From a virus: 64,000 nt of DNA. The stretch's first letter is position 1; each line of letters opens with the position of its first letter. The notes under the pieces are model-generated. The model saw only the letters and a program-made list of their open reading frames with translations, made no database searches and had not been told where the DNA came from. The position numbers were made by a program, and so were the translations under genes. The stretch spans positions 62,001 to 126,000 of the IMG/VR virus record IMGVR_UViG_3300027861_000001, one strand, 5' to 3'. This document shows positions 368 through 25,681 of this stretch, piece by piece.

Positions 368-652
368 TTAACTCGTCCAACAGACAAATCTTGCAATACA
401 ATCTTCACAATCAGGACACGGTAGTTTATCTATCTTTTCATGAAAATGCCTTAGCACTTCATACTTTATACCATTCTTCACTTCTTCATGAGTTTCGTAA
501 CAATTGTTACAATCCCAGCATTCGTGTATCCAAGAGTCATAATCAACTATATCCCAAGAATTTAATTCGTTGTGTCTGTCTTTAGAAGTATAAACCCAAC
601 CCCAACACACCCAAACTGAACCACAATAGTCGCATGTTCTTAAATTATTCAT
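368..652 (-). CDS. Small Cys-rich protein with C-terminal CxxCxxRFxCWT tag
   Basis: A 94-residue protein starting at MNNLRTCDYCGSVW. I chose ATG 652 because it overlaps the stop of the preceding gene (ATGAATAA); a longer reading would run far into that gene. An N-terminal CDYC and a central CWDCNNC suggest one zinc site. The last residues, CEDCIARFVCWTS, are the recurring tag seen in twelve other proteins of this window. Function unknown. It is followed 3 nt later by tRNA-Ser. Confidence 0.75.
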   Translation of the reverse strand: MNNLRTCDYCGSVWVCWGWVYTSKDRHNELNSWDIVDYDSWIHECWDCNNCYETHEEVKNGIKYEVLRHFHEKIDKLPCPDCEDCIARFVCWTS

Positions 653-929
653 AATATAACATATCCAAGCTGTCAGTCCAGCACGGAAACTTATATTTAC
701 ATTCGTCACAATTATAAGGTACTATTTCCCACGGATACATCCACACACTAAAGAAGAATGATGGATTGCTGGTTGTAATACTTACCAAATACAATTCACC
801 TCTTGGTGCTTTAGTTTCAGCTGTTACGATTCTTACATCAAACTCTCTACTTGTAAATGTACCCTGCCAAGTCTCGTCCAAATGAACTCCATTTGGTAAA
901 CAGACCTTGTCGTCAACTTCAAACTTCAT
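645..929 (-). CDS. Small protein with CxxCxxKFxCWT tag, directly after tRNA-Thr
   Basis: A 94-residue protein, mostly predicted beta (DDKVCLPNG, GTFTSREFDVRIV), which suggests a small barrel of the kind found in RNA-binding or adaptor proteins; this fold guess is weak. The tag CDECKYKFPCWT sits near the C-terminus and is followed by a nine-residue tail. The ATG at 929 lies 4 nt beyond the 3' end of tRNA-Thr, so its leader is essentially the tRNA. The 3' end overlaps the next gene by 8 nt. Function unknown. Confidence 0.75.
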   Translation of the reverse strand: MKFEVDDKVCLPNGVHLDETWQGTFTSREFDVRIVTAETKAPRGELYLVSITTSNPSFFFSVWMYPWEIVPYNCDECKYKFPCWTDSLDMLYYE

Positions 930-933
930 TTTG

Positions 934-1006
934 AGCCCCCAGTAGGAATCGAACCCACAACCTATCGCTTACAAGGCGATTGCTCTTCCAGTTGAGCTAT
1001 GGAGGC
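934..1006 (-). tRNA. tRNA-Thr(TGT)
   Basis: Acceptor GCCTCCA/TGGGGGC pairs with one T-G wobble. Anticodon stem ATCGC/GCGAT carries loop CTTGTAA, anticodon TGT (reads ACA). The variable loop is short and CCA is not encoded. It lies 5 nt after the stop of the membrane-protein gene ending at 1012, and its 3' end is followed at once by the start of a tagged ORF. Confidence 0.96.
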
Positions 1007-1011
1007 GTAGT

Positions 1012-1257
1012 TTACTTTCCTCTTATAGCAAGTATGAACAAAACTAACCACGCTGTTGCGTTTATGCATGTTGCCACTATTGATGCCACCAATCCCATAC
1101 TACCAAATACACCAGCCAAACAAAACAAGCACAATGCTGTCATACCTGAACTAAACTTACTTACATAAATACCCTGCAAAGCCATTTTAATTTGTGGGAT
1201 TAGCATAAATCCCAAAGACATTATCAAGACAGTAGTTACATAGTCCTGCCAAATCAT
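1012..1257 (-). CDS. Three-TM protein resembling PQ-loop/SemiSWEET
   Basis: An 81-residue, almost wholly hydrophobic protein with three predicted membrane helices (about residues 5-25, 38-55 and 58-78). A Pro-Gln pair (MLIPQIKMAL) at the end of helix 1 is the signature of PQ-loop transporters, and the length equals one three-helix SemiSWEET unit, which dimerises to move small sugars. Sequence similarity is only at motif level, so a holin or another membrane effector cannot be excluded. Start ATG 1257 overlaps the upstream stop (TGATG), which shows translational coupling. Confidence 0.5.
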   Translation of the reverse strand: MIWQDYVTTVLIMSLGFMLIPQIKMALQGIYVSKFSSGMTALCLFCLAGVFGSMGLVASIVATCINATAWLVLFILAIRGK

Positions 1258-1397
1258 CACTTACCCTTCTTTTTCTTATTCCTTTTAGTAACGGCGTTTT
1301 TATACATTTCTCCTAAACCACCACCGTGCCTAGGTATATTCTCTTTTTTAGTTTTTTGTTTCCTGTCTCTTCTTTGCCACTTGTATTCGCTTGACAT
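1257..1397 (-). CDS. Short basic protein, 46 aa
   Basis: Very basic (many Lys/Arg, with a C-terminal run KRNKKKKGK) and containing a central HGGGLGEM segment. It is coupled by stop/start overlaps at both ends: TAATG with the gene upstream and TGATG with the membrane protein downstream. That coupling is the main evidence that it is translated. A nucleic-acid or membrane-surface binding role is possible. Function unknown. Confidence 0.6.
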   Translation of the reverse strand: MSSEYKWQRRDRKQKTKKENIPRHGGGLGEMYKNAVTKRNKKKKGK

Positions 1398-2215: not shown

Positions 2216-2224
2216 ATTGTTCTC

Positions 2225-3340
2225 CTATGTTATATCCGTATCAGTCCAATCACCAGGTGTAAACGCCGCAGAAACACCATCAGCCTCATAACTCTCATTA
2301 CTATCACCAAAATCTCTACAAAAAGTTCCATCAGGTATCCAAAGAAGGTGGTCTTTATCTGCTGTTAATGATGGGTGACCAATTTCTATAGAGCAATCTC
2401 CAGTAAATATCGGGGTTATCGGTACTTGTGTTTCTTTATAAAATCCTTCTCCTTGTACCCCTTCCCACAACTCAATATCGTTTAAACTTGCTCCGCTCAC
2501 AAGTTTTATCGGACGATCATACACAAATCTAAGGTGTGTATTTATAGCTGGTGCTGTGGTTACACCACGACCAACAGTCCAACTTGTAAGATGCGGAGGA
2601 TCAAAATATACGTCACGATGGTACATTTGAACCTCTCCAAATGTTACATAGGGTTCAAATCTAATCCATTTTCCACTACTAGTCCACGGATCACCATAAG
2701 CTGGATACTCTATTACTTCTCTTATTCCTAAAACTAAATAAATGGTCTCTGTGTAAGATTGGCTATTAAAGATTGAAAGACCAGCAGAGTTTACGTTAAA
2801 AGTAACGTGGTTGTCGTCCACATAAGAGTCTAAGTCTATATAAGTATCACAGATTAACGTTGCGTTCTGGTTTATTGTCTTAAAGTCTGCCTCACTATGA
2901 TTAATCCCAGTAACAGTGTATAATCCTAAACTACAACCAGAGAGCCAAGAATAAGCACTATCTTTTTCACCATATACTTCCACTGCTAAACTTTGCAGTT
3001 CGTTAACACCATATCTTTCTGGATAACAAGAACCGTATCCGTATCTGTCAACTCCCCAAATAGTATGGTAACAACGAGAATACTTACTATCAGCCTCAGT
3101 AGATAATTCAACCGCTCCAGCGTAATGATAAAAAGATTGATAAGAGTCATGCCAATCTCCGCCCCAAGTGAACCAATAATAACCCCACTCGGTCTCTTCC
3201 CAGTTTCCATCTGCTTGAACTAGTTGTAATAGCGTCAATGGTGATGGGTGTGGGGAAAGAGACGTATCAAAAGCAGTCTCCGCACTAAGCACAATATTAC
3301 TAGGAGAAGCATTACTTCCGGCCCATCTTTCTGTCCACAT
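2225..3340 (-). CDS. Putative virion surface protein, 371 aa
   Basis: A second large aromatic, beta-rich protein (for example GYYWFTWGGDWHDS), with repeated Trp/Tyr and acidic residues and no catalytic motif that I recognise. Composition resembles carbohydrate-binding or DNRLRE-type surface domains. Its ATG at 3340 overlaps the stop of the preceding tagged gene (TAATG). It is paired with the 272-residue gene just downstream, and the two probably form a surface complex or are paralogues in fold. No homologue is named. Confidence 0.45.
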   Translation of the reverse strand: MWTERWAGSNASPSNIVLSAETAFDTSLSPHPSPLTLLQLVQADGNWEETEWGYYWFTWGGDWHDSYQSFYHYAGAVELSTEADSKYSRCYHTIWGVDRYGYGSCYPERYGVNELQSLAVEVYGEKDSAYSWLSGCSLGLYTVTGINHSEADFKTINQNATLICDTYIDLDSYVDDNHVTFNVNSAGLSIFNSQSYTETIYLVLGIREVIEYPAYGDPWTSSGKWIRFEPYVTFGEVQMYHRDVYFDPPHLTSWTVGRGVTTAPAINTHLRFVYDRPIKLVSGASLNDIELWEGVQGEGFYKETQVPITPIFTGDCSIEIGHPSLTADKDHLLWIPDGTFCRDFGDSNESYEADGVSAAFTPGDWTDTDIT

Positions 3341-3579
3341 TAATGTTCACCTCCAGACTCTGTCCAACAACGAAATCTTTCTTCACACTTTTTACATCTT
3401 ATTTGGTTACACCCAATACCTTTGCTTCTAACAAAGTCATAATACTCGTCACACGCACCACGTTCCCTACACATTTCCCTTCTCCATTTGTTCAAAGGAA
3501 TCCAATCACACCAAGCAGTATCATAATACGTACATTTTCGTTGTATACAAAAATTATCTCTCTTTTGTTCGTCATTCAT
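3340..3579 (-). CDS. Small Cys-rich tagged protein, directly after tRNA-Pro
   Basis: A 79-residue protein. I place the start at ATG 3579, because any longer reading would be the tRNA-Pro itself. Several cysteines precede the tag CKKCEERFRCWT, which ends 6 residues before the C-terminus. The ATG begins one nucleotide after the tRNA discriminator base (A-C-ATG), so there is no room for a Shine-Dalgarno outside the tRNA acceptor stem. After RNase Z cleavage the message would be leaderless. Function unknown. Confidence 0.75.
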   Translation of the reverse strand: MNDEQKRDNFCIQRKCTYYDTAWCDWIPLNKWRREMCRERGACDEYYDFVRSKGIGCNQIRCKKCEERFRCWTESGGEH

Positions 3580-3580
3580 G

Positions 3581-3654
3581 TCGGAGCAAAAGGATTTGAA
3601 CCTTTGACTTCTGCGCCCCAAACGCAGTGCTCTACCAAACTGAGCTATACTCCG
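3581..3654 (-). tRNA. tRNA-Pro(TGG)
   Basis: Acceptor CGGAGTA/TGCTCCG pairs, with A73. Anticodon stem CTGCG/CGCAG carries loop TTTGGGG, anticodon TGG (reads CCA). CCA is not encoded. Positions 8-10 (TAG) are the stop codon of the HNH gene upstream, so tRNA and CDS overlap by 10 nt. Confidence 0.96.
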
Positions 3655-4043
3655 TCGTACCAATTAAGTTGTTTAGCAGTTCTCCTTCTGTGACAATTAG
3701 CACACAGAACTCTACACTTATTTAGTTCCCTGCTTATCTTACCCCAAGAATAATTATTTTTTACCATATTGGAAACAGTATCAAATTTATCTATGCTTGC
3801 TCTGTGGTCAAAATCTAAGACTACAAAATCACTCTCACCACAATCCTCACATGGGTGAGTTAAACAATACTCTCTTAGTTTTAGATATTTTGTAAGTCTC
3901 CTAATCTTAGCGTTTTTATTTTTTGCTTTTTTAATTTTTTCTTTATTTTTATGATAGTAATTTCTATCATACACTTGTTTGCATGATCTACAGTATGGAC
4001 TATGTTTTAATCTATTGTTTTTACCGCACTTGTAACATTCCAT
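3645..4043 (-). CDS. HNH endonuclease with zinc clusters
   Basis: A 132-residue protein. An N-terminal CYKCGKNN...YCRSC zinc knuckle is followed by a Lys-rich linker (about 30-55). Then comes an HNH core: CEDCGESDF, LDFDHR (catalytic His), a helix, and KCRVLCANCHRR. The fold is that of phage free-standing HNH nucleases, which nick or cut DNA and are often mobile. Insertion beside a tRNA fits a selfish homing enzyme, though a packaging or repair role is possible. The stop codon TAG lies at positions 8-10 of tRNA-Pro. Start ATG 4043 abuts the upstream stop. Confidence 0.8.
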   Translation of the reverse strand: MECYKCGKNNRLKHSPYCRSCKQVYDRNYYHKNKEKIKKAKNKNAKIRRLTKYLKLREYCLTHPCEDCGESDFVVLDFDHRASIDKFDTVSNMVKNNYSWGKISRELNKCRVLCANCHRRRTAKQLNWYDGV

Positions 4044-4190
4044 TTAATCAGTCCAACATCTAAATCTTTCTTTACATTTTTCGCATTTCATTCTGAAGCA
4101 AACAGCTTTTGCTGCTGGTGGTAAGTCTCTTACAGTGTCAAGTAAAGTCTTCACTAAAACAATACAGACAATAATAAATAGTAAATCCAT
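4044..4190 (-). CDS. Membrane-anchored mini-protein with terminal CxxCxxRFxCWT tag
   Basis: A 48-residue protein found by reading the gap. Residues 3-16 (LLFIIVCIVLV) form one hydrophobic helix, a short linker follows, and the protein ends in CEKCKERFRCWTD. The tag would therefore be displayed at the membrane, probably on the cytoplasmic face. This is the clearest case of the tag forming almost the entire soluble part of a protein. It ends immediately before the HNH gene start and begins after the 80-residue ORF. Confidence 0.7.
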   Translation of the reverse strand: MDLLFIIVCIVLVKTLLDTVRDLPPAAKAVCFRMKCEKCKERFRCWTD

Positions 4191-4204
4191 CTGCTGTTAT
4201 TTAC

Positions 4205-4769: not shown

Positions 4770-4774
4770 TTTAG

Positions 4775-5347: not shown

Positions 5348-5370
5348 TTACGATCTCCTACAAATTAATA

Positions 5371-5643: not shown

Positions 5644-5652
5644 CTTGATCTC

Positions 5653-5880
5653 CTATTCAGTATAACATTCAAACCTTACTTTACAATTATTACATTCTGA
5701 CATATCGAATTTTTTATTGTTTGTACACCAAATCCACGCACCGACGTTGTTCTTACATTTTGGACATGTGGTACAATACTTATCTACCCAAAACACATCT
5801 AAATAATCTTCATACGACAAAGGAAAACCACACTTTGGACAAGTTGCAAAAGCATATTTTTCCAACTTTTCCCTATCCAT
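5653..5880 (-). CDS. Zinc-ribbon protein with terminal tag, directly after tRNA-Glu
   Basis: A 75-residue protein. CPKCGFPLSYEDY and CTTCPKCKNNVG form a two-knuckle zinc ribbon, and the protein ends CNNCKVRFECYTE, the shared tag with Tyr in place of Trp. Its ATG at 5880 starts one nucleotide after the discriminator base of tRNA-Glu (A-C-ATG), with no independent Shine-Dalgarno. tRNA processing would leave a leaderless mRNA. Function unknown. Confidence 0.75.
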   Translation of the reverse strand: MDREKLEKYAFATCPKCGFPLSYEDYLDVFWVDKYCTTCPKCKNNVGAWIWCTNNKKFDMSECNNCKVRFECYTE

Positions 5881-5881
5881 G

Positions 5882-5954: not shown

Positions 5955-5960
5955 TAGTTG

Positions 5961-6043: not shown

Positions 6044-6049
6044 TTTTTG

Positions 6050-6123: not shown

Positions 6124-6129
6124 TTATGT

Positions 6130-7618: not shown

Positions 7619-7846
7619 CTAAACATAATCCCACGATTTAGTCCAACACTCAAATCTTTCTTTACAAAAGTTACATTTCCTATCGTCTACTAACCTTCTT
7701 CTACACTGCCTAAAGTAAGCATCATTACCAAAAATTTGTGCTTTCATTTCTTCCCACATTTCTAATGTGAGTGCATCATCTGTTGGGCCTAGCTTTTCCC
7801 CATACACCTTTTCAAAGATTTCTTTGGTTACTACTTCTCTATCCAT
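7619..7846 (-). CDS. Small tagged protein downstream of tRNA-Cys
   Basis: A 75-residue helical protein. Its C-terminal part CNFCKERFECWTKSWDYV contains the shared tag, with an extra Cys 13 residues earlier that could be the fourth metal ligand. ATG 7846 begins 13 nt after the 3' end of tRNA-Cys with AAGGATTGATGA as the only possible ribosome site. The N-terminal 45 residues have no resemblance to the other tagged proteins. Function unknown. Confidence 0.75.
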   Translation of the reverse strand: MDREVVTKEIFEKVYGEKLGPTDDALTLEMWEEMKAQIFGNDAYFRQCRRRLVDDRKCNFCKERFECWTKSWDYV

Positions 7847-8780: not shown

Positions 8781-8938
8781 TTAATTTCTGAAACATTAAG
8801 TAATTCTATTCCGACTATACCACCGTCTTCATCAATATCTATTATAATGTCTTCAGTTATCTCTGTAGTCCTAGCTATTTCTTTGTCCGATACATAGACA
8901 TAAGCCGCTTCTGCTAATTTATCATATACTATTTTCAT
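8771..8938 (-). CDS. DUF2283 protein, stop inside tRNA-Met
   Basis: A 55-residue protein. The start MKIVYDK at 8938 overlaps the upstream stop (ATGA). The pattern of an N-terminal YD, AAYVYVSD, TTEITEDIIIDIDEDGGIVGIELL matches DUF2283, a small beta-alpha-beta family of unknown role seen in bacteria, archaea and phages. The last codons GAC TCG TAG coincide with the first ten bases of tRNA-Met, so stop and tRNA positions 8-10 are the same bases. Confidence 0.85.
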   Translation of the reverse strand: MKIVYDKLAEAAYVYVSDKEIARTTEITEDIIIDIDEDGGIVGIELLNVSEIKDS

Positions 8939-9165
8939 TCTTTTGTCCAACATTTGAATCTAAGTTCACATTTACTACATTTGGTTTCATCTCGTTCTTT
9001 GTATTTACTACAATAAAAAGGACAACGAGACTGATTAGTGGAATAAATGTTTTTATCTAGCTCATAACAATACCCCAACCAGCGTGATATATACGACGAA
9101 ATTTTTCTAGGTGCTGGGTCTAGTTTTCTACAATCACCACATTGATTCCATATTTTTTCAACCAT
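8935..9165 (-). CDS. Small Cys-rich protein with terminal tag, directly after tRNA-Lys
   Basis: A 76-residue protein. An N-terminal CGDCRKLDPAPRK and later CPFYC suggest a zinc knuckle, and it ends with CSKCELRFKCWTKE. ATG 9165 starts one nucleotide after the discriminator of tRNA-Lys (A-C-ATG), and no purine-rich ribosome site is visible in the tRNA acceptor strand. Its stop overlaps the DUF2283 start. Function unknown. Confidence 0.75.
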   Translation of the reverse strand: MVEKIWNQCGDCRKLDPAPRKISSYISRWLGYCYELDKNIYSTNQSRCPFYCSKYKERDETKCSKCELRFKCWTKE

Positions 9166-9249: not shown

Positions 9250-9405
9250 TTATTTAGTCCAGCATTTGAATCTTTTTATACAAGTATCGCAACCATTAAG
9301 ATTACTGTCAAGAATTGTACGACAAATACTTATAAAGCGGTCATCCATTTCTGCTTTTTGTTTATAATACAAAGCTAAATACTGAAGTTTTTCTTCTTTA
9401 GTCAT
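9250..9405 (-). CDS. Mini-protein with terminal tag, downstream of tRNA-Leu(TAG)
   Basis: A 51-residue protein. A charged helix (TKEEKLQYLALYYKQKAEMDDRF) leads to a single Cys and then the terminal CDTCIKRFKCWTK. It starts 11 nt after tRNA-Leu(TAG), with GAGGAACAAA as ribosome site, and ends 9 nt before tRNA-Lys. It is a minimal version of the tagged proteins: one helix plus the tag. Function unknown. Confidence 0.7.
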   Translation of the reverse strand: MTKEEKLQYLALYYKQKAEMDDRFISICRTILDSNLNGCDTCIKRFKCWTK

Positions 9406-10715: not shown

Positions 10716-11429
10716 TTAACTCCCCCATCGACTTTGAGACTCCACCAAAATTCTTCCTTCTATGATAAAATCTTCCAAGTCATTTTCCACTAACCATTCC
10801 TTAATCCGAAGCATTCTTTGTTTTCTGTCAGTTTCTTCAACAAGAATAGCATCCCCCGAATCAACGTGTTTCTTTCCAAGTGCCAAGAACTCGTCCCTAA
10901 CTGTGCTTAAATAGTTAAAGTTCATCTCACACCACTTAGCTTTCTCCCCTTTGTCCCATCTCTCTTTTATTCTCTCGATATTCCAATCAAGTGGTGGTAA
11001 AAGAATGACAAACTTCTTTGGTTGTGGAGTATTTGATTTCTTATAAAGGTCTTTTGTCATCTTTACGATATTCTTATACTCTTTCTTTGATAACCAACCT
11101 AACTTTTCAAACGCTGACATATAAACAAGGTCATCAAAGCAACATCTGTCTCCAATAACGACAGAACTATCCGATTGAGTTTGAACGTATGCTAGATTTT
11201 CTCTATGTTCAACGCAATGAAGACCCATTCTCCATACCTGCCTAGTTACTTCATCATCTATGCTTTCCATATGAGCAATTTGCTCATTTACTTTGTGTGG
11301 GTCATATGCTTTCAAATCCTCAATTAGTGTAGACTTCCCAACACCATGAGGGCCACACAAATACAAAACCCTGTTGTTATCTTCAGTATTAAATATGTAC
11401 GGGTCTGGTGGAAACATTACCGGTGTCAT
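10716..11429 (-). CDS. P-loop nucleoside/nucleotide kinase-like protein
   Basis: A 237-residue protein. Walker A GPHGVGKST at 26-34, a GDRCCFDD segment (DR-type motif of deoxynucleoside/thymidylate kinases), and an Arg-rich lid region (NIERIKERWDKGEKAKW) point to the NMP-kinase fold. Substrate cannot be deduced; AAA_28-type or RNA 5'-kinase relatives are alternatives. The ATG overlaps the upstream stop (ATGA). Confidence 0.75.
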   Translation of the reverse strand: MTPVMFPPDPYIFNTEDNNRVLYLCGPHGVGKSTLIEDLKAYDPHKVNEQIAHMESIDDEVTRQVWRMGLHCVEHRENLAYVQTQSDSSVVIGDRCCFDDLVYMSAFEKLGWLSKKEYKNIVKMTKDLYKKSNTPQPKKFVILLPPLDWNIERIKERWDKGEKAKWCEMNFNYLSTVRDEFLALGKKHVDSGDAILVEETDRKQRMLRIKEWLVENDLEDFIIEGRILVESQSRWGS

Positions 11430-11746
11430 ATGAACTTCCTCACTTTGTTAAAGTTTATTTGCACTTTCTTGTTTCGGCTTGTATCCTCCCTGATACTCAC
11501 CTTAATAGTTGGTGTTAAGTAATTCGCAACTATTTCTGCACTTAAGTTATTACCGTTTTTCAAATTTAAATCTTTGAGATTTATAACCAGTGCTTCATCG
11601 CTAGTAAAACATTCGTAACGATGAGTACAATCGCTACAAACTTCTTCAGCATTTTTAGCTCCATGACAGTAAAATTCTTTTCTCCAGTTGTCAGTACGAC
11701 TAGTGTCTTTTACGAGGATTGTTTTCAATTTCTCCCTTCCTTTCAT
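11426..11746 (-). CDS. Tagged protein with internal CxxCxxRYxCFT
   Basis: A 106-residue protein. The tag CSDCTHRYECFT is near residues 37-48, not terminal; a hydrophobic/beta C-terminal domain follows (LSAEIVANYLTPTIKVSI). It overlaps the preceding tagged gene by 47 nt, so two tagged proteins are translated from interleaved frames. Internal placement shows the tag is a mobile domain rather than a fixed terminus. Function unknown. Confidence 0.7.
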   Translation of the reverse strand: MKGREKLKTILVKDTSRTDNWRKEFYCHGAKNAEEVCSDCTHRYECFTSDEALVINLKDLNLKNGNNLSAEIVANYLTPTIKVSIREDTSRNKKVQINFNKVRKFI

Positions 11747-11984
11747 GACAATCTAATATTGTACCTGTATAACATGTAAAACGATTAGGACACACTTCAC
11801 AACTTTCTATTCTAAGTAAACTTTCAGAAGGATAAGTTAGAGTAGTGCGATATGAGTTTAAAGGATAAACATAATAATTGTTATAATTTTTTTCTCCGAT
11901 TATAAGCCCCATATCCCCAGCGTGTGAGCTTTGATACCCATGTGTATCTATAATCATTACTACATCATTCTTTTTTAATTCCAT
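11700..11984 (-). CDS. Small beta-barrel-like tagged protein after tRNA-Arg(TCT)
   Basis: A 94-residue protein. The N-terminal half (KKNDVVMIIDTHGYQSSHAG, DMGLIIGEKNYNNYYVYPL) looks like an SH3/KOW-type barrel. The tag CEVCPNRFTCYTG lies at about 62-74 and is followed by a charged tail. ATG 11984 lies 7 nt after the 3' end of tRNA-Arg(TCT). A KOW-like barrel could bind RNA or a ribosome/RNA polymerase partner; that is inference. Confidence 0.7.
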   Translation of the reverse strand: MELKKNDVVMIIDTHGYQSSHAGDMGLIIGEKNYNNYYVYPLNSYRTTLTYPSESLLRIESCEVCPNRFTCYTGTILDCHERKGEIENNPRKRH

Positions 11985-12293: not shown

Positions 12294-12503
12294 CTACACT
12301 TGGTTATTACTGTCTACTAACATTTGTATACAATATCTACATAAAACTAAGACAGGTAATTTATCATTTGTATAATTATAATATTTTATCGCGTGTACAT
12401 AACACACGTCTTTTCCGCACACCATGCAAATTTCTTTCCCTTCAAACTGATCATCCTCACAATCATCACAAATCACTTTTTCTTTTGTAATAAACTTCTT
12501 CAT
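12294..12503 (-). CDS. Cys-rich zinc protein, 69 aa
   Basis: Start MKKFITKEK at 12503 overlaps the stop of the upstream tagged gene (TAATG). Cysteine pairs CDDC, CMVCGKDVCYVH and CRYC can make two cross-braced zinc sites like a short B-box or treble clef. It resembles the 110-residue protein at 4437-4769. Function unknown. Confidence 0.65.
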   Translation of the reverse strand: MKKFITKEKVICDDCEDDQFEGKEICMVCGKDVCYVHAIKYYNYTNDKLPVLVLCRYCIQMLVDSNNQV

Positions 12504-12754
12504 TAAACCCCTGATGTTATGCACTTAAACCTGTGTTCGCAAAAACCGCATTTAGGATATGTACCAGCTGGTTGTTTGTATCTTTCTCTATGAATAACAC
12601 ACAAGATTCGCATCTTATTACGACAATTAGTACAATGCACTAATACTGCGTAACCGCTGGTATCTCTACAAAACCTATTTCTAGTAATTATGTTGCAATT
12701 TAAACATTGAAACAACGCACTATCATACGACCAATTAAATTCGTTATATTTCAT
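12503..12754 (-). CDS. Zinc-finger protein with terminal tag, after tRNA-Ser(GCT)
   Basis: An 83-residue protein. CLNCN and CTNCRNKMRILC give one zinc site, then a helix and the terminal CGFCEHRFKCITSGV (tag with Ile in place of Trp). ATG 12754 starts 11 nt beyond tRNA-Ser(GCT). It is coupled by TAATG to the Cys-rich ORF downstream. Function unknown. Confidence 0.72.
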   Translation of the reverse strand: MKYNEFNWSYDSALFQCLNCNIITRNRFCRDTSGYAVLVHCTNCRNKMRILCVIHRERYKQPAGTYPKCGFCEHRFKCITSGV

Positions 12755-14255: not shown

Positions 14256-14533
14256 TATAACCCCCTATAAACATCCCCATGAAGGAGCTTTTTCCTGTCT
14301 TCATAAGGTGCTGCCTTTCTTCTATAATACTCATTTTCCACACAATTAATAACCCCTACAACACGATTAATAGTAAAATAATTAATGTCATCATAAGTTA
14401 ATTCTAGTAATCTTGTAATAGTATAATTCAAAGCTCCATCAACTTTCCCATCGTCAAACGTCTTTAATTGCTTAACCAGTTCATCGATTTGATCATCAAT
14501 CTCTGCCCTATCTTCTCGCTTTATATACGGCAT
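14255..14533 (-). CDS. Hypothetical helical protein, 92 aa
   Basis: Strongly helical and acidic; [29 protein letters not shown] suggests a short coiled coil, with a YY and basic end. It overlaps the bS21 gene by 26 nt. Similar short helical ORFs are common in phages of Gram-positive bacteria; function unknown. Confidence 0.65.
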
Positions 14534-14750
14534 CCTTATTCTCCTTTTTCCTCTGCTTCAACCTTTTTTGGTATATCTTTCTTCTACGTTTAATTGACGG
14601 TTTCTCGTAAAACTCTCTTACTTTTAATTCTCGTAGTATACCAGAATTATGCACAGCACGATTAAACCTACTCAACATAGAATCGAACCCAGTCATCCTG
14701 CATTCAGCTTCTCTTCTTCTTTCTGTATCAGTCAATTTTACTTCCGTCAT
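14508..14750 (-). CDS. rpsU: Ribosomal protein bS21 homologue
   Basis: An 80-residue protein. Residues about 22-62, [18 protein letters not shown], then the run [15 protein letters not shown] and a Lys/Arg-rich helix, match bS21, including the conserved REFYEKPS. bS21 is the last small-subunit protein to join and sits by the anti-Shine-Dalgarno, and it is the ribosomal protein most often carried by phages. It could exchange into host ribosomes and bias initiation to phage mRNAs. It overlaps the endonuclease-like gene by 23 nt. The N-terminal 20 residues are unlike cellular S21. Confidence 0.9.
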
Positions 14751-15135
14751 CTTCTACTGTTATTAATTTCCACTCGAAATTGCCAGCTTTAATTGCCTTC
14801 TTAATGCTGTTCTGACGAGCAGTCGTCTTACTCTTTCCTTTCTTTATTTCAACAATTACCACTCTTTCAACTCTATTTTTAGACAACCCATCAAATACCA
14901 CAAAGTCAATCGGACTACCTAAGAACCTAGCGTCGCTAGGGTCAAACTCCCAACCAGGAAGATGTGGTACTAATTGTTCATAAACCTTACCTTCAATGGT
15001 GGCTCTACTCCTCTTAATTGCGTCCTGTCTAGCAAACTCTACTTTATCTTTCCAACGATGTTCTCTAACCAGTAGTAACACTAGCAAAAATAAAATTACG
15101 CAAACTCCAACTATCCCAAACATTAATTCAATCAT
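14728..15135 (-). CDS. Membrane-anchored Holliday-junction-resolvase-like endonuclease
   Basis: A 135-residue protein. An N-terminal membrane helix (5-23) and then a PD-(D/E)xK core: E49, [11 protein letters not shown] (Asp77) and VVIVEIKKG (E96-x-K98). This fits the Endonuc_Holl (PF10107) family, secreted or membrane-tethered endonucleases distantly related to archaeal Hjc. Membrane location would place it at incoming or host DNA. It overlaps both neighbours. Confidence 0.8.
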
Positions 15136-16085
15136 TACTTGTTTTTTAACCTCTCTATCCTAGGAAGAAACCAGCGTGTTTCCCAATAGTTGGTTAATTC
15201 ACCAAAAGACTTAGAAGGTAAAGGAAGTAATGTATTATCCTTTTCGCATAAAAACTCTTGATAGTTATAAGATAGGGGGATTACATACACCCCACGCAAG
15301 TTTTCCATCCTCTGTGCCTTTGCATGTTTACCAAGTTTCTGAAATGTCTTTACAACTCCGTACCTATCTTTTACTGTACCGTCCTCGTTGTAATAAATTT
15401 CAGAATGTTTACCATGTGTCTTCTTATATTCTTCTCTAACCTTATCCTTCACACTTAGTGGGACAAGTACGGAAGAATAACCCTTTGTCGTGCCTAAGTA
15501 TTTAAACCCTTCTAATCTGTTATAAATACTCGACTTCCCGTACAAAGAAGTTACTGTATATAGTGCTAACTTGTGACCATACTTTTTCTCAAAATAAACC
15601 TGTACTTCTTCACTTTTTACAGACAACGCTGCAAGTTTACCGGTTAAATAGTTATTTAGTGGTGGAGTAGCAATACAATGTTGAACGTTCATTAGATAGT
15701 TTATTTTTTTATGCGTCCATTTATTCTCTTTCGTCCACCCTATATGTTTATCTCTAATCGGTATTGTCAAATCAGAAGAAAGACCTACGATTCCTAATAC
15801 AAATCCAGTTTCCTTATCCCTTATTAGGTAGTGAAATCTTCTTCCTACTTCTCCGCTAAGTGGGGCTGTTGACGTTATAACCCTTCCGTACCACCACAAA
15901 TCTTGTAGGTTTCCTGTATCACAAAAATCTATATAAGGTTGTATAGAACCTAAAGCAGGTACATTCATCTGCACTGTTTCCCAAACAGGTTTAATCTTTT
16001 GTAATCTGTCACTGTGTTTTACTAAATACTCTTCTTTGACTTCAGTTAATTTCTCTTTCAACTCATCTTTAGTAAATTCACTCAT
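15135..16085 (-). CDS. DUF4338 (DruA-like) protein
   Basis: A 316-residue protein. GRRFHYLIRDKETGFVLGIV, a RDKHIGW segment, ATPPLNNYLTGKLAAL and a later VTSLYGKSSIYNRL match DUF4338, the family of DruA from the Druantia defence system. Its biochemical activity is not established. Such proteins also occur outside Druantia. No DruB-E is nearby, so this is not a complete defence system. It overlaps the FmdB-like gene by 8 nt and adjoins the endonuclease. Confidence 0.8.
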   Translation of the reverse strand: MSEFTKDELKEKLTEVKEEYLVKHSDRLQKIKPVWETVQMNVPALGSIQPYIDFCDTGNLQDLWWYGRVITSTAPLSGEVGRRFHYLIRDKETGFVLGIVGLSSDLTIPIRDKHIGWTKENKWTHKKINYLMNVQHCIATPPLNNYLTGKLAALSVKSEEVQVYFEKKYGHKLALYTVTSLYGKSSIYNRLEGFKYLGTTKGYSSVLVPLSVKDKVREEYKKTHGKHSEIYYNEDGTVKDRYGVVKTFQKLGKHAKAQRMENLRGVYVIPLSYNYQEFLCEKDNTLLPLPSKSFGELTNYWETRWFLPRIERLKNK

Positions 16086-16323
16086 TCTTTTCTAAATCAC
16101 TAGCATATCCAACTTTTATATCCGGTTTCCTTTTTCTCCCAGTAATTCCTCTCTCCTCAGTAATATAAAATCCCGCACCTTTGTAGTGGCTGTGCCACAT
16201 AGATACAGTCTTATCTGCTTCACGTCCACATTTAGGACATTTATAAGTAGGTTTAGGTTCAAATTCCTTCTGACGGACTTCAAACTTACTTCCACAAGTA
16301 CAACGATACTCGTATATCGGCAT
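16078..16323 (-). CDS. FmdB-type zinc ribbon protein
   Basis: An 81-residue protein. Start MPIYEYRCTCG at 16323. CTCG...CPKCG with the FEVRQ linker is the FmdB/CxxC-CxxC-SSSS domain, a one-zinc ribbon of regulatory proteins. The C-terminus is basic and Gly-rich. Role unknown; many small phage transcription adaptors have this ribbon. Confidence 0.85.
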   Translation of the reverse strand: MPIYEYRCTCGSKFEVRQKEFEPKPTYKCPKCGREADKTVSMWHSHYKGAGFYITEERGITGRKRKPDIKVGYASDLEKNE

Positions 16324-16325
16324 AA

Positions 16326-16577
16326 TTATGTTCCTTCGGATAAACAACGTCCACTAAACAGCTCGCTCACGTCGTAAATTGGTATTGTGTCCTTAAACTC
16401 TACACCGTCATCCAGTATTACATTATATATTTCCCAATAAATAGGGTCTACTGAAACGTCTGTAGTATCAATCCAGTTTGTTTCTTTTAGATTCTCTGAA
16501 CCACAAAATGGACACGAACTTGTACTTGTTTTTATTACGGACACTAAATGCCCTCTTTCACAAAACTTAGCTATCAT
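16326..16577 (-). CDS. Zinc-knuckle hypothetical protein, 83 aa
   Basis: An N-terminal CERGHLVS followed by CPFCGSENL forms a treble-clef or rubredoxin-like knuckle. The rest is acidic with beta character. ATG 16577 lies 20 nt after tRNA-Ile with AAAGGATG as ribosome site. Function unknown. Confidence 0.7.
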   Translation of the reverse strand: MIAKFCERGHLVSVIKTSTSSCPFCGSENLKETNWIDTTDVSVDPIYWEIYNVILDDGVEFKDTIPIYDVSELFSGRCLSEGT

Positions 16578-17319: not shown

Positions 17320-17556
17320 TTAATTCATATAAAATTTAAATACGTCTGGTTTATAAAGTTCAGAGTTTGCTTCATTAAACACATCTTGTATATCAGCAGG
17401 TGTATAATTACTTCCTTCTTCTAGGTTAATAAGTACACACTCAGATTGAATTATTGGATGCCAAAAACCATTTATCAATCCAAATGGAACGTAGTGCAAC
17501 CTTGCCCACTCTACATAACTATCTTTTTCTTCTTCGTCTAGGTGTTTCCACATCAT
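17320..17556 (-). CDS. Hypothetical protein, 78 aa
   Basis: ATG 17556 overlaps the upstream stop (ATGATG). Sequence is acidic with WKHLDEEEKDSYVEWARL and a helical C-terminus. No family recognised. It ends 5 nt before tRNA-Met. Confidence 0.62.
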   Translation of the reverse strand: MMWKHLDEEEKDSYVEWARLHYVPFGLINGFWHPIIQSECVLINLEEGSNYTPADIQDVFNEANSELYKPDVFKFYMN

Positions 17557-17819
17557 TTCCACTCTGTTGTCCAACACTTATATCGTTCGTCACAATAATC
17601 ACACTTTTTTGTATTTTTAGTTCTTTTTCTACAATCAGAAAAAAACATATCATCTTCAACTGGAGCAGCTAGATCACTACCTATAAACATAATTTGCTCC
17701 ATAGACACTGTTGAAGGACAACCATTTGCACAGATAGAAAGCCCACTACCAGCACTAACGTTAATAGTAGTACCATTACCACGATTAGCTGAATAAAGAT
17801 AATCGTCTGTTTTCCGCAT
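17553..17819 (-). CDS. Small tagged protein with C-terminal CxxCxxRYxCWT
   Basis: An 88-residue protein. Start MRKTDDYLYS at 17819 follows AAGGAAAGTTATAGA; the upstream stop is one base away. A Gly/Thr/Ser-rich beta segment (GNGTTINVSAGSG) and CANGC precede the terminal tag CDYCDERYKCWTTEWK, with an extra Cys 11 residues earlier. This tagged gene is outside the tRNA cluster proper but is in the same operon as tRNA-Met. Function unknown. Confidence 0.72.
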   Translation of the reverse strand: MRKTDDYLYSANRGNGTTINVSAGSGLSICANGCPSTVSMEQIMFIGSDLAAPVEDDMFFSDCRKRTKNTKKCDYCDERYKCWTTEWK

Positions 17820-17820
17820 T

Positions 17821-18072
17821 CTATAACTTTCCTTGAGGTCCACTAAACTCTTTTTTCTTTCTACGTGTTTTAGGTTTTTCCATGTATCCATCATCCATTA
17901 ACCACTTACACTTGTTTTTGTTTATCTCTTGGCAGGGTTGATCGCAAGGTATTTCTACAAAATTTTTGTTAACTATTTTTCCTTCTGCGTTAATATTAGC
18001 TGTAGTACAATACCAAGCCCCATCTCTGTACTCGCAATACTCACATTTATTAGCAATTTGTCTCTGTTTCAT
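17821..18072 (-). CDS. Cys-rich protein, 83 aa
   Basis: The N-terminal CEYCEYRDGAWYC, then CDQPC and a late Cys followed by a basic tail (KPKTRRKKKEF). It may be a distant zinc-site protein; the CEYC start resembles the tag but lacks RF and WT. ATG 18072 follows AGAGGGTGAGCT. Function unknown. Confidence 0.65.
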   Translation of the reverse strand: MKQRQIANKCEYCEYRDGAWYCTTANINAEGKIVNKNFVEIPCDQPCQEINKNKCKWLMDDGYMEKPKTRRKKKEFSGPQGKL

Positions 18073-20534: not shown

Positions 20535-20537
20535 TAC

Positions 20538-21281
20538 TTATCGCATCCACGGCTCTAGTTTCCTCGTCTTATCTAAGCAATGTTCTAAGAAGAAGCAGCG
20601 AGAACAGTCTCTTCCAAGGTGTCTAACATATACACCCGACCTCATTTTTTTCTCTAGCTTATCTAGCTCACCAGCCAGCATTTCAAAATCTTTCTCTGTC
20701 CTAGTAGTAACTAAATCCTTCATAGTTCCTAAGTGCCTAAGAATCAGACTACTTTCTGGTTCACCAAACAATTTACGATACGCATAACTATACATAGTAA
20801 ATTGTAAATCAAAGTCTAGTTGAAGTTGTGTAGGTTTCACACCAGTTTTATAATCTATTACTCTTTTTCTATCATCTATTTGGTCTATAACACCGATAAG
20901 TGTATGATTACCTATTGGTAATCCACCACCTGAAAAACCAAAGCGATACTCAAGCTCTTTTGGTGCTTTTATGCCTTTTACAAAGTTATCATAGTATGTA
21001 CCAAGCATTTCTTGACCTTTATCCAACTTTTTTATATACTCATTATTAACTGTATAACTGATGTTGGCTTGTGCATTAGCAGTAATCCACTCAGTCTTAA
21101 ACAGCTTTATCCAAGCATCTCTTGGTAAGTCATTAACATAACCTAAATGAATTGCTTTATGAACAGCTGTACCAAAAACAGATGCGGCTGTTTCTTGTAG
21201 TTGAACTTTCTTTATGTATCGCAAGTAGTATTGATACTCGCAAGCCATAAAACTATTCACCATTGTATACGAAAACCTCAT
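20538..21281 (-). CDS. PD-(D/E)XK nuclease, RecB/Cas4 type
   Basis: A 247-residue protein. FGTAVHKAIH (active His), LIGVIDQIDD and VIDYKTG (D...DxK), then a Gln-containing QFTMYSYAY motif. CEYQYYL near residue 14 and CSRCFFLEHC at the C-terminus provide four Cys for an iron-sulphur cluster, as in AddB/Cas4. It is likely a 5'-3' exonuclease for recombination, consistent with RecA downstream. Confidence 0.88.
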   Translation of the reverse strand: MRFSYTMVNSFMACEYQYYLRYIKKVQLQETAASVFGTAVHKAIHLGYVNDLPRDAWIKLFKTEWITANAQANISYTVNNEYIKKLDKGQEMLGTYYDNFVKGIKAPKELEYRFGFSGGGLPIGNHTLIGVIDQIDDRKRVIDYKTGVKPTQLQLDFDLQFTMYSYAYRKLFGEPESSLILRHLGTMKDLVTTRTEKDFEMLAGELDKLEKKMRSGVYVRHLGRDCSRCFFLEHCLDKTRKLEPWMR

Positions 21282-21643
21282 TATACTCCTTTTTCAGTGG
21301 TTGGAATACCACCGGCTCTGCTTATGTGATAATTATCACTTACATAAAATTCTTTGGTTGCTTTCCACACATCCATATCGTTGTACACTTGTCGCATCTC
21401 TCGTTTCTTTTCCTTTATATCTAATCTATACTGGACTAGTGCCAACTTCTGCTCTTCGTTGTTACCAATTATTTTTACTTGGTCTACTATTTTTCCCTTT
21501 TTCTTTGCGTTTAATGCCTCCATAACACACTCTGCCTCATACAACCTCAAATCATCTTCCATTCCTTCACATTCAGCCCTAAGATCAGTTACCCTTCTTA
21601 ACAGCCTCGCATATTCGTCAGTGTCTGGTCTGCTAACTATCAT
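21281..21643 (-). CDS. Coiled-coil protein, 120 aa
   Basis: Heptad-like helices (LLRRVTDLRAECEGMEDDLRLYEAECV and a second Lys/Glu-rich helix) dominate. No known domain. It is placed between the nuclease and RecA, so it may be a recombination accessory factor; inference from context only. Confidence 0.65.
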   Translation of the reverse strand: MIVSRPDTDEYARLLRRVTDLRAECEGMEDDLRLYEAECVMEALNAKKKGKIVDQVKIIGNNEEQKLALVQYRLDIKEKKREMRQVYNDMDVWKATKEFYVSDNYHISRAGGIPTTEKGV

Positions 21644-21652
21644 AAATCCCCT

Positions 21653-21835
21653 TTACGTTTTTATTATACTTCTACTAAGCATCGGGAGGCCACCAAGGTT
21701 GTTCTTTGGTGTCCAATTTGCATATAACCATTTAAGTCCATCATAAACAGTAAGTTCTGGTCTAACCTCTTCATCTACCATATTCCAAAGCTCAAAACAA
21801 GCCTCAAACCACGCGTCCGATAAATTGCTATCCAT
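21653..21835 (-). CDS. Hypothetical protein, 60 aa
   Basis: Start MDSNLSDAWFEACF at 21835 overlaps the end of recA by 8 nt; a longer reading would sit inside recA. Contains two Trp-rich helices. Function unknown. Confidence 0.55.
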   Translation of the reverse strand: MDSNLSDAWFEACFELWNMVDEEVRPELTVYDGLKWLYANWTPKNNLGGLPMLSRSIIKT

Positions 21836-22847
21836 CTGATTCATCAACCTCGTCATCTTGATTTTGTTCAATAGAAACGATGGACTCCGCAAGATATTTT
21901 ACCTTCAACTCTTCTTCAAACTCAGGATGTTCTAATACATAATCAGCAACTTTGCTCAAACCTTGCCACCTTAACTCAGTGCCATAATTATACCATGCTC
22001 CAGACTTTTCTAATATATTTGATTCTACACAAACCCTAAGTAAATCTTTAGTTTTATCAATACCTGTTAAATGACAAACATCAAACTCGGTAGTTCCGTG
22101 CGGTGTTACGTCGTCAAATTTAGCTTTCTGAACAATAACATCACTTATATGTCTTGCGTTTACTTTATCCACATCATGCTTATTCATTCTAATTTTCAAG
22201 TCTGTGTAATACTGTAACGCTCTACCACCAATGGGTTTTTCATATGCCATGAAGCTAGACCCCGACATGTCTATTCTTAAATGATTAACAACGATTAAAA
22301 TAGCCTCTCTAGTCCTAAGAACAATATTATTTTTATCCAAAAATCTACTTATTAATCTAGCTTTAGCACCTATCGCGTTATCGTCCGGTGTTAAACCACC
22401 TATAGAATCAACTATAAATACCTTAGCGTCTGAGTTTCTTAAAAGTTCGCTAAGAACATCAAGAGTGTCTTCTCCGTTGTCTGTCCTCCAAACAACCCAA
22501 TTATCAGAATTAACATCTACTCCGATAGATGTTGCATGCTCTGCTGAGTATGTTTCTAACGGAATTAAAACAGTCTCTAATCCTGCCCCTAAAGCACTTG
22601 CAGATATATGATAAGAAAGAGTAGTTTTTCCTGCCCCCTCTGGGCCATATACCTGAACAATAGTACCACCAGGAATACCACCGCCTAGAATTCTGTCTAG
22701 GCTTAAAATACCAGTAGGTAGCTTCCAACTAGCTTTACCTGTTGGAATATCAACACCAATCTTCTTTTTCTTTTTGTCTTTAGATGCCGGTTTAGCATCA
22801 TTCTCCTTTTTTATGGTTTGAACTATATCTCTTGCACTTTTCCCCAT
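21828..22847 (-). CDS. recA: RecA-like recombinase
   Basis: A 339-residue protein. Walker A GPEGAGKTT at 68-76, Walker B KVFIVDSIGG near 140, VVNHLR in place of the usual NQIR, PIGGRALQYYTDLKIRM, and a C-terminal ILEKSGAWYNYGTELRWQG block typical of RecA. The Lys-rich N-terminus (KDKKKKK) is phage-specific. It performs homologous strand exchange. It overlaps the dCMP deaminase by 25 nt. Confidence 0.93.
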   Translation of the reverse strand: MGKSARDIVQTIKKENDAKPASKDKKKKKIGVDIPTGKASWKLPTGILSLDRILGGGIPGGTIVQVYGPEGAGKTTLSYHISASALGAGLETVLIPLETYSAEHATSIGVDVNSDNWVVWRTDNGEDTLDVLSELLRNSDAKVFIVDSIGGLTPDDNAIGAKARLISRFLDKNNIVLRTREAILIVVNHLRIDMSGSSFMAYEKPIGGRALQYYTDLKIRMNKHDVDKVNARHISDVIVQKAKFDDVTPHGTTEFDVCHLTGIDKTKDLLRVCVESNILEKSGAWYNYGTELRWQGLSKVADYVLEHPEFEEELKVKYLAESIVSIEQNQDDEVDESDG

Positions 22848-23386
22848 ATCCTATCCTCCGAAATAACTTCGACTTTTACTCCTGCATCCCTTAACATGTC
22901 CTTACTTTTTAATCCTACTTTCCAAGCCTCAGTCCACTCTACACAAACTATCCTAGCTATTTTTGCGTTAATTAACTCTTTAGCACAATTAGGACATGGT
23001 ACAGGACAATAACAATAAAGTGTTGATCCCTCTATAGAAACTCCGAATCTGGCTGCTTGACAAATTACATTTGCTTCAGCGTGTACTGCTGGACAATGCT
23101 CCATCCCCTCTCCAGATGCGTATCCCATTTCTCTCCTAGGACAAATATCACTTTGTTTTGTAGGTTTGTAATCACCCTTACTGTCTCTGTACTCACAATG
23201 AGTAATACCAGAAGCAGGTCCATTATACCCAGTAGAAACTATGTGATTGTCTTTAACCGCAACAGCCCCTATTTTCCTAGATAAACACTTACTGTGCTCT
23301 GAAACTAAATTAGCTACCTTTAAAAAATGAATATCTAGTATTAACTGTCTTTGTCTTTCTTCTGCTACTGTTCTGTTACTAGTCAC
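22823..23386 (-). CDS. Deoxycytidylate deaminase (dCMP deaminase)
   Basis: A 187-residue protein with GTG start (GGAG ten bases before). CKIG-like N-part, GYNGPASGITHC, HAEANVI (zinc His and catalytic Glu) and PCPNC (zinc Cys pair) are the ComEB/T4 gp cd family signature, with the extra Cys/His structural zinc. It makes dUMP for ThyA (27325-27963), consistent with the nucleotide pathway in this cassette. Confidence 0.93.
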   Translation of the reverse strand: MTSNRTVAEERQRQLILDIHFLKVANLVSEHSKCLSRKIGAVAVKDNHIVSTGYNGPASGITHCEYRDSKGDYKPTKQSDICPRREMGYASGEGMEHCPAVHAEANVICQAARFGVSIEGSTLYCYCPVPCPNCAKELINAKIARIVCVEWTEAWKVGLKSKDMLRDAGVKVEVISEDRIWGKVQEI

Positions 23387-23405
23387 TTATTACCGTCTCC
23401 AATCA

Positions 23406-25340
23406 TTATTTTGGTATTAAATATAACTGTTGCCTATCTGTATTATCTTCGGGGTGGTTTTCTCCACCCCACGCATCTTTAATTTCCAAATCCACTAATA
23501 TAGGAACTTGTTTAAGGAATTTCCTTGCACCTTCAATCATGGTATCATTAACAATGCGAGCCGCTATTATTGCATTTTCTTCAGGAACCTCAACGCACAC
23601 CTCATCATGAATTGTGTTTACAAGTCTACCACCAATTTTTTGTAGTGGATAGAACATTAGAATAATGGCTGTTTTCGTCATGTCAGCACTTGTACCTTGA
23701 ATTGGATGATTTTTTCCAACTCTTATATAATAATTTTCCAACCTTCTACGCTCTTTAAAGTCAATGTCCCTTTTACTAAGGTCTGGAAACCACCTACAAC
23801 GCCCACCAACAGTTCTAGTTAATCCTTTCTCTAAAGCCTTATTACCTGCGTTAGTTAAGTACTCAATCAGAACACTGTAAGTATTTTTATATCTTTCCAA
23901 ATGTTCAGCAGCCACACTTAAACTACAACCTATTCTTTCGGACAAGGTTTTAACTTCCATTCCATAAATGATTCCAAAGTTCAAAGTTTTTGCTGCCCTA
24001 CGAAGATCATCATCAACGTCCTCAGTATCATACATGTCTCTGGCTGTTGACCAATGCAAGTCTTCACCTTTAGCAAGAGCAGCTAGCATTAATGGATCAC
24101 CACTCAACTCAGCGGCTAATCTAAGCTCTATTTGAGAATAGTCAGCCACAATAAACTTACAACCTTTCTCTGGAACAAAACACGCTCTCAAGATTTTTCC
24201 GTCTTTTCCCTTCTTCTTTATATTCTGAAGATTTGGGTCTGAGCTGCTAAGTCTACCACTATCTGTCCCAGTTTGATGAAATCTGGCGTGTATCCTCCCA
24301 TCTTTAGCAATGTGCCCAAGCAAGCTCTCTCCGAATGTCTTTTCAACCTGCTTAACTTCCCTATAATCAACCAAGCTTTTTATAATTTGTTTCTTTTTAT
24401 CGTCATCACACATAGATATAGCATAAAGCAAAGTAGCGTTATTGGTCAATCCTTTTCTAGTTACTTTATTAGCTCTATTTAAGTCAATTCCTACCGCATC
24501 AAATGCTTCATTTACTTGTTGCCAACTATCTAGATTAAGAACTGGTGGTGGTTTAGGAACAGCGTTATTTTTGTACGGTGTTCCATCCTTCTTTATCCTC
24601 ACAGGTTTTGGTGGAGGTGGTAATGGAGCAGGAAGCTCATCACGTAAGAACCGACTCAAATTAAACACTCTCTCATTAATTTGTACTAATGTTTTTCTCC
24701 ACTTAACAGCATCAAGCTTTATACCAGCAATCTCCATATGAGCAATAGGTTCTATTAACCTAAACTCTAGGTTCGATATGGCAGTCATCTTAAACTCTTT
24801 TATATACCTTTGCTGATTCTTCATGATATCAATTAGATACCAAACATCCAGCGCGGAATACTCTAACTGCTCGTCAGTAAAAACACCATTCTCGTGGTCG
24901 AAGTCAACAAACGTTTGCCTTACCTGCTTATCAAGAGTAACATCACAATACTTCTTAACTAGCTGTAATAAGTTTGTGCGAACATTGTACATACCAGCAT
25001 GTAGTAATTTCTCAGCAATTTGTGTATCATATATTCCCTTTACTGATATGCCAGCTTTAACATATAACATTTTGTAATCAAAATTTGCATTTTGAATAAT
25101 TTTAGTATATGCTCTATCTTCTAACACTTCCTTAAGTGGGGATAAATCAACCTTCCTTGCATCAATTACGTATGCCACATCACCAACCAACAACTGAACA
25201 AGCAACAGTTTAACGTTATCATCTAAATAATCTAGTCCAGTAGTTTCTGTATCTAGAGGAATAAATTGTTGTTTCTTTGCTTCTTCAACTATATTAGGAA
25301 CGTCTTCTTGTTTAATAATATATTTGTATATTAAGTCCAT
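23406..25340 (-). CDS. Family A DNA polymerase with 3'-5' exonuclease
   Basis: A 644-residue protein. Exo I LDTETTGLD (about 28-36), exo II NANFDYKML, exo III YSALDVWYL; polymerase motif A DYSQIELR near 399, motif B RRAAKTLNFGIIYG and motif C IHDEVCVE near 576. There is no 5'-3' exonuclease, so it is a phage replicative Pol A. Pro-rich insert (PAPLPPPPKP) between exo and pol. The stop overlaps the ATG of nothing; ATG 25340 overlaps the upstream stop (TAATG). Confidence 0.95.
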   Translation of the reverse strand: MDLIYKYIIKQEDVPNIVEEAKKQQFIPLDTETTGLDYLDDNVKLLLVQLLVGDVAYVIDARKVDLSPLKEVLEDRAYTKIIQNANFDYKMLYVKAGISVKGIYDTQIAEKLLHAGMYNVRTNLLQLVKKYCDVTLDKQVRQTFVDFDHENGVFTDEQLEYSALDVWYLIDIMKNQQRYIKEFKMTAISNLEFRLIEPIAHMEIAGIKLDAVKWRKTLVQINERVFNLSRFLRDELPAPLPPPPKPVRIKKDGTPYKNNAVPKPPPVLNLDSWQQVNEAFDAVGIDLNRANKVTRKGLTNNATLLYAISMCDDDKKKQIIKSLVDYREVKQVEKTFGESLLGHIAKDGRIHARFHQTGTDSGRLSSSDPNLQNIKKKGKDGKILRACFVPEKGCKFIVADYSQIELRLAAELSGDPLMLAALAKGEDLHWSTARDMYDTEDVDDDLRRAAKTLNFGIIYGMEVKTLSERIGCSLSVAAEHLERYKNTYSVLIEYLTNAGNKALEKGLTRTVGGRCRWFPDLSKRDIDFKERRRLENYYIRVGKNHPIQGTSADMTKTAIILMFYPLQKIGGRLVNTIHDEVCVEVPEENAIIAARIVNDTMIEGARKFLKQVPILVDLEIKDAWGGENHPEDNTDRQQLYLIPK

Positions 25341-25681
25341 TAAAGTGTCCCATCAGCACTAGTATATGTATAAGGCCCAGTTGTTGTTATAGTTGTCGTA
25401 TCGTAAGTAGGGTTGCTTGTTGTAGCCCAAGAACTCCCACCGTCCGAATACGTATACGGAATATTCCAAGCAGGTGTACTAGGATTAAGATTATCTTTTA
25501 GATGTTCTACTATTTGAATCAATGCAGCTTCTCTGCCTAACCCTTGTGCCATAAGAGCCTCAAACATTCCTTGAAGATTGTCATCTGAGAATATCTTCTC
25601 TTGCGTAAAACATTGAAATCTTTGATCACAAGTCTCACACAAACATTTTTTGGTTCCAGCTTTACTTTTGTGGTTTATCAT
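25340..25681 (-). CDS. Tagged protein in replication operon (CxxCxxRFxCFT near N-terminus)
   Basis: A 113-residue protein. Start MINHKSKAGTKK at 25681, overlapping the upstream gene by 20 nt. The tag CETCDQRFQCFTQ is at about 15-27, followed by a helix and a Ser/Thr/Tyr/Gly-rich disordered tail (repeats of TYT/GPYTYT). Only tagged protein beside DNA polymerase, and with the tag N-terminal. It may link the tag's partner with the replisome; inference. Confidence 0.7.
   Translation of the reverse strand: MINHKSKAGTKKCLCETCDQRFQCFTQEKIFSDDNLQGMFEALMAQGLGREAALIQIVEHLKDNLNPSTPAWNIPYTYSDGGSSWATTSNPTYDTTTITTTGPYTYTSADGTL

Follow-up and report, generated by a model that had tools for sequence, protein, structure and literature searches.

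A 12-residue cysteine peptide, C-x2-C-x2-[RK]-[FY]-x-C-[WYFI]-T (hereafter the tag), is carried by 13 otherwise unrelated small proteins encoded in a 64,000-nucleotide stretch of viral DNA (the window; bases 62001-126000 of virus record IMGVR_UViG_3300027861_000001, 149,053 bases in total). Roughly one in five predicted genes of the whole record has the same tag, which recurs throughout a little-known clade of large uncultured phages. We favour the reading, to which we give about an even chance, that it is a portable metal-binding address tag by which accessory phage proteins would be docked on one partner.

A shared tag on unrelated small proteins

All 13 open reading frames (ORFs) of the window are on the minus strand, and each has one exact match to the pattern, at the places given by an earlier note that had been made from the letters of the DNA alone. 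No half-matches suggesting a fuzzier pattern are found in the coding ORFs of the window, and residue-shuffled six-frame translations of the window (200 replicates) give a chance expectation of 0.0 tags per replicate. The positions of the tags within the proteins are also as had been described: ten have 1-9 residues behind them, two are internal (ORFs 11426 and 11700, by their lower coordinates) and one is N-terminal (ORF 25340). Once the tag is masked, no pair among the 13 bodies shows BLAST similarity at E<0.03, which bears out the claim that the bodies are unrelated and do not form a paralogous family. The additional Cys that the note had seen before most tags is present 2-11 residues upstream in 10 of the 13 proteins, and this part of the claim holds; ORF 12503 has its extra Cys at -17, but in ORF 645 the upstream Cys is only at -64, and ORF 11700 has none upstream and one Cys 6 residues downstream (the sole window tag of that kind).

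Over its full length and in all six frames the record has 69 loose matches, nearly all of them within real ORFs, and with the working pattern 65 ORFs are tagged. When 2.9 million viral contigs were scanned twice for the pattern, seven related contigs (55-153 kb) proved rich in the tag, with 16-48 pattern matches each, and the reversed pattern has no match in any of the seven. Summed over the eight contigs there are 295 tagged ORFs. The ORF calls behind these counts are simple, and two of the contigs, G005 and G006, have many near-identical genes, which leaves fewer independent cases; the number of body families is the safer one. BLAST clustering of the tag-masked bodies yields 181 families among the 295 ORFs, 131 of them single, and 54 families among the 65 proteins of this genome. 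An ordinary paralogous family is rejected by this clustering.

No ORF among the 295 has two full tags, and of 200 cross-genome homologous pairs 179 are tagged in both members. A tail of at most three residues follows 38 of the 65 tags in this genome, versus 3-8 tags per genome in the relatives; the position of the tag is therefore free over evolution. The tagged ORFs are small (median 94-118 amino acids in five large genomes). The structural modules have no tags, and 171 out of 172 ORFs of at least 300 amino acids are untagged, the exception being a SWIM-finger-like protein that owes its size to an intein-like insertion. In G006 the tagged SWIM-finger-like protein (L159:9695-11125) is split by an intein with a LAGLIDADG domain.

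The C-terminal tags of the window (all on the minus strand) are CEDCIARFVCWT (374..409; ORF 368-709, with a 1-residue tail), CEKCKERFRCWT (4050..4085; ORF 4044-4190, behind a hydrophobic helix), CNNCKVRFECYT (5659..5694; ORF 5653-5880, with a Cys-rich body before it), CSKCELRFKCWT (8944..8979; ORF 8935-9165) and CDTCIKRFKCWT (9256..9291; ORF 9250-9405). Near the C-terminus lie CDECKYKFPCWT (675..710; ORF 645-929, with a 9-residue tail), CKKCEERFRCWT (3361..3396; ORF 3340-3663, likely start 3474), CNFCKERFECWT (7640..7675; ORF 7619-7846), CGFCEHRFKCIT (12515..12550; ORF 12503-12754, again behind a Cys-rich body) and CDYCDERYKCWT (17568..17603; ORF 17553-17894). The internal tags are CSDCTHRYECFT (11603..11638; ORF 11426-11746), which has tagged orthologues in G001, G002 and G003, and CEVCPNRFTCYT (11766..11801; ORF 11700-11984), the one without an upstream Cys. 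The N-terminal tag, CETCDQRFQCFT (25604..25639), belongs to ORF 25340-25762, which adjoins the DNA polymerase gene and is the window member of a core family with tagged homologues in 8/8 contigs; in this family the tag is followed by FSDPxxQGLFEALMAxG. The core-family copy in G002 (103891-104286; L034:735) has no ATG, GTG or TTG ahead of the tag, and its start codon may be unusual.

Residue constraint and level of selection

Over the 295 tags, position 7 is R in 265 and K in 30, position 8 is F in 277 and Y in 18, position 11 is W, Y or F in 245, and position 12 is T in 267. The Cys residues at positions 1, 4 and 10 are fixed by the definition of the search, a circularity that we avoided by counting single departures from the pattern among the ORFs. 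Against 239 full matches (shuffled proteins give 0.05), there are no departures at C4, C10 or F8, two at C1 and three at R7 (from one protein family), with 50 at position 11 and 10 at position 12. R7 and F8 are held about as tightly as the Cys residues; we count this for an address label, as a mere metal clip would not need such constancy at these two positions. In one homologue C4 is replaced by Tyr, yet R-F-x-C-x-T is kept.

The constraint is on the protein and not on the DNA. Arg at position 7 is encoded by all six codons, in the proportions found in the bodies, and the same is true for Cys, Phe and Thr; the synonymous identity between tags is 0.586 genome-wide, versus 0.574 expected. Body-like codon choice and synonymous identity at expectation overall therefore indicate selection on the peptide, and an element acting at the DNA or RNA level is rejected on the same grounds.

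A putative metal site

Cys residues outside the tag are found in 293 out of 295 tagged ORFs, compared with ~261 expected (34 without) if they were as rich in Cys as untagged small ORFs. The extra Cys is usually 2-17 residues upstream of the tag. Cys is in excess at -4, -5, -8 and -10 (8-14% per position versus a background of 2.5%), and the first 15 positions downstream are Cys-poor. This enrichment just before the tag and depletion just after it strengthen the suggestion, already made in the earlier note, of a fourth Cys ligand, which we regard as probable. The simplest reading of these sequences is that the three Cys of the tag and one Cys of the carrier would form a metal site. Low-confidence AlphaFold2 models, from an alignment of tag fragments and from one of the core family, predict a CxxC followed by a short helix. 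Taken together, the spacing, the extra Cys and the weak hints from profiles and predicted structure suggest that the tag probably binds a metal, which may be zinc instead of an iron-sulfur cluster.

Relation to known families

Profile scans of 67 tagged proteins against Pfam, PHROGs and NCBIfam found no family that covers the tagged set, giving weak Cys-motif matches only, and a profile search of PDB gave no match; these results agree with the earlier statement that no described family has this architecture. A known domain or a set of full-length paralogues, the two outcomes named beforehand as refuting the claim of the earlier note, did not turn up. In one scan of 85,000 bacterial and archaeal genomes the tag pattern has two matches, which is about chance level (one of the two lies within an ABC-transporter-like gene). 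The literal motif was not found in the open-access literature, and broader literature searches were empty or off-topic.

The [4Fe-4S] sites of endonuclease III, WhiB and Cas4/AddB-type nucleases are built from C-x2-C-x5-C and an additional Cys. The Cas4/AddB/Dna2-type PD-(D/E)XK nucleases share this spacing, together with one Cys elsewhere, and here the spacing is present in 295/295 tagged ORFs and the extra Cys in 293/295. Cas4-domain exonucleases of unrelated phages (PHROG 6e-35) have the full CxxCxxRFxCWT pattern as their C-terminal Cys segment (L024:878-1735, L043:6453-7349 and L071:223-1074), which speaks for compatibility and not for descent, because those proteins were picked by the pattern itself. 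The PDDEXK_1 nuclease of this phage has CSRCFFLEHC at its C-terminus. In Cas4/AddB/Dna2 nucleases, however, the first ligand is at the opposite end of the nuclease domain and there is one motif per genome, whereas the tag is free and comes without nuclease residues; the scans of the 67 tagged proteins reported no PD-(D/E)XK nuclease domain.

The loop of endonuclease III and MutY (C-x6-C-x2-C-x5-C) has the same spacing, is often terminal and has its upstream Cys near, and two tag fragments match EndIII_4Fe-2S weakly (E 0.064). But R-F-x-C-[WYF]-T is absent from this loop, the upstream spacing of the tag is variable (2 to >15), and no HhH-GPD glycosylase domain was found in the tagged proteins. 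WhiB-like proteins share the Cys segment C...C-x2-C-x5-C only, and the tagged proteins are without the WhiB body; the matches to WhiB are weak (one tagged protein at E 0.035 and one fragment at E 0.01), the best profile score being 15.1 bits, below the Pfam cut-off of 23.6. The layout of a zinc ribbon or finger, with two CxxC knuckles or a C2H2 arrangement, is not seen in the tag, where a single CxxC is accompanied by a Cys at +6 and a second knuckle is absent (some of the bodies have their own). Judged by these comparisons, the tag is outside the Cas4/AddB, endonuclease III and WhiB families. Its Cys spacing is of a known kind; a tag spread across a phage proteome is, to our knowledge, new as a system.

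In its use of one conserved element on many unrelated proteins the tag resembles the marker for type VI effectors (MIX), which acts as a label on unrelated effectors (e.g. PMC4549250, PMC6267618), and comparable address domains in other sets of effectors; one common element on unrelated bodies is what we see here as well. The MIX domain is longer and N-terminal and belongs to toxins that bacteria secrete, whereas the tag is a 12-residue Cys element on phage proteins.

A proposed address label and its alternatives

As an address label, the tag would be a portable mini-domain of 12-13 residues, whose three Cys, with one Cys of the carrier, would hold a metal (an iron-sulfur cluster or zinc) and display a constant surface made of R7, F8, the aromatic residue at position 11 and T12. 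In each genome some 30-65 accessory proteins would bear it, as a single copy each. The constant surface would be bound by a partner common to all of them, probably a conserved protein of the phage, which would thereby bring the tagged proteins together at a single site or in a single complex inside the infected cell; docking, and which protein might be the partner, are the least certain parts of this scheme. The single copy, the unrelated bodies, the free position and the tightness of R7 and F8, equal to that of the ligands, suggest an address label rather than a working domain. The tag is constant although the DNA polymerases are ~50% identical across the clade, which suggests a partner that is either phage-encoded (among the ~70 genes common to the clade) or a very conserved host protein. 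The earlier note had likewise read the tag as one portable element on diverse bodies, and to this extent we concur; its suggestion of the ribosome, RNA polymerase or tRNA processing as the partner gains nothing from our results, in which no evidence pointing to any of these was found.

Several observations weigh against docking by a compact metal-bound tag. The distance to the fourth Cys is not fixed and is large in some carriers, the AlphaFold2 models are of low confidence (predicted local distance difference test scores of about 58 and 60-70 in the tag) and show no compact site, R7 and F8 could serve folding rather than docking, and no partner is singled out among the ~70 shared genes. By conservation alone, candidate tag readers are the genes of a block kept in seven contigs (window 14511-16347), three small unknown genes plus DruA. 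Few genes of the clade are as well conserved as that of the DruA-family protein (window 15138-16085; Pfam 7e-28), at 58-69% identity, and its ORF is about twice as long in G002, G005 and G007, perhaps by insertion.

The tag could instead be a small metal-binding knuckle, structural or nucleic-acid-binding, that stabilizes tiny proteins with separate functions and no common partner. We consider this somewhat unlikely: it would account for the 3+1 Cys pattern, for the several zinc-ribbon-like bodies and one SWIM-finger-like carrier family (E=0.033), and for the weak matches of tag fragments to zinc fingers and Fe-S domains, but zinc fingers often come in repeats whereas two full tags are never found in one protein, F8 and R7 vary about as little as the ligands, and the tag is placed freely from the N- to the C-terminus while large and structural proteins are without it. 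It is doubtful that the tag is there to be recognized by an enzyme that modifies or cleaves proteins (e.g. a radical SAM enzyme or, with the tag as a degron, a phage or host protease), by which the carriers would be switched or removed together. The conserved residues of the tag (Cys, Thr and aromatic ones) could be targets of cross-linking, and one of the three radical SAM enzymes of this genome is encoded right behind proteins with another common leader (see below). These neighbours, however, bear that different leader and not the Cys tag; G002, with its 47 tags, has neither an orthologue of that enzyme nor any ORF that passes a crude radical SAM screen (its contig may be incomplete); and internal tags are conserved as well as terminal ones, unlike typical C-degrons.

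Short constant signals on many small proteins also bring to mind cargo-loading peptides, such as those of encapsulins and of the T4 internal proteins, and the docking site might be the capsid or a scaffold, the tag bringing the carriers into virions, from which they would be delivered together with the DNA. We think this decidedly improbable, as the tagged genes are outside the structural module and partly among tRNA genes, and there is no sign of late expression, although here the promoter scan did not discriminate (sigma-70-like sites are no commoner than in shuffled sequence, either in the tagged region or in the structural one, and the scan permits no inference on timing). There is very little to be said for a DNA- or RNA-level element, for one DNA segment that has spread recently or for one paralogous family whose members have diverged, all of which we regard as extremely improbable: the tags of the 24-36 kb cluster show a slight excess of shared codons (synonymous identity 0.614 versus 0.550 expected), but some of the bodies there are paralogues, the codons at the fixed positions are like those of the bodies and differ freely, synonymous identity is at expectation genome-wide, and the 65 proteins fall into 54 body families.

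Large phages have dozens of small accessory genes of unclear role, which may act singly or as an organized set. If the tag is an address label, its presence on dozens of unrelated proteins would show such organization. That the addressing is proteome-wide, with one metal-bound label on ~1/5 of the phage genes and one partner assembling or placing all accessory proteins, seems to us to have a little less than an even chance. The 12-residue peptide offers a single handle for finding the partner of all tagged proteins together, and the regular expression lets such genes be found and grouped in metagenomes.

The phage lineage and other genes of the clade

A search of viral contigs with the capsid-like protein recovers only the tagged clade and a few fragments. 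This protein has no relative in the 85,000 bacterial and archaeal genomes and no match among 50,697 annotated phage records; the lineage is therefore taken to be uncultured. Two of the clade's source metagenomes (3300017963 and 3300017971) are named in PMC7449369 as data of D. Valentine. The genomes of the clade encode a tape-measure protein, a UvsX-like recombinase, a DnaB-like helicase and a polA-type DNA polymerase with the exonuclease on a separate gene. There are 22 tRNA genes in the window, and a CCA-adding or poly(A) polymerase-like enzyme with an HD domain (31892-33229 of this genome, G000) is kept across the clade. A MoxR-like AAA ATPase followed by a DUF2201 protein (VWA-like and metallopeptidase-like) is also conserved in the clade and adjoins the tag-rich cluster (G000 36464-39269; L010:16464-19266).

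This one phage genome has genes for three radical SAM enzymes (G000 15497-16078, 20975-21937 and 45570-46589). The last of them, a radical SAM/SPASM enzyme, directly follows seven tandem genes outside the window (G000 42822-45558; L011:2822-5555) that encode different small proteins with a common N-terminal leader, MK[IVT]RxGFVSNSS(S/T)xSF. The leader string was not found in the PubMed Central literature. It is also present in G001, G003, G005, G006 and G007, and three leader proteins bear the Cys tag too.

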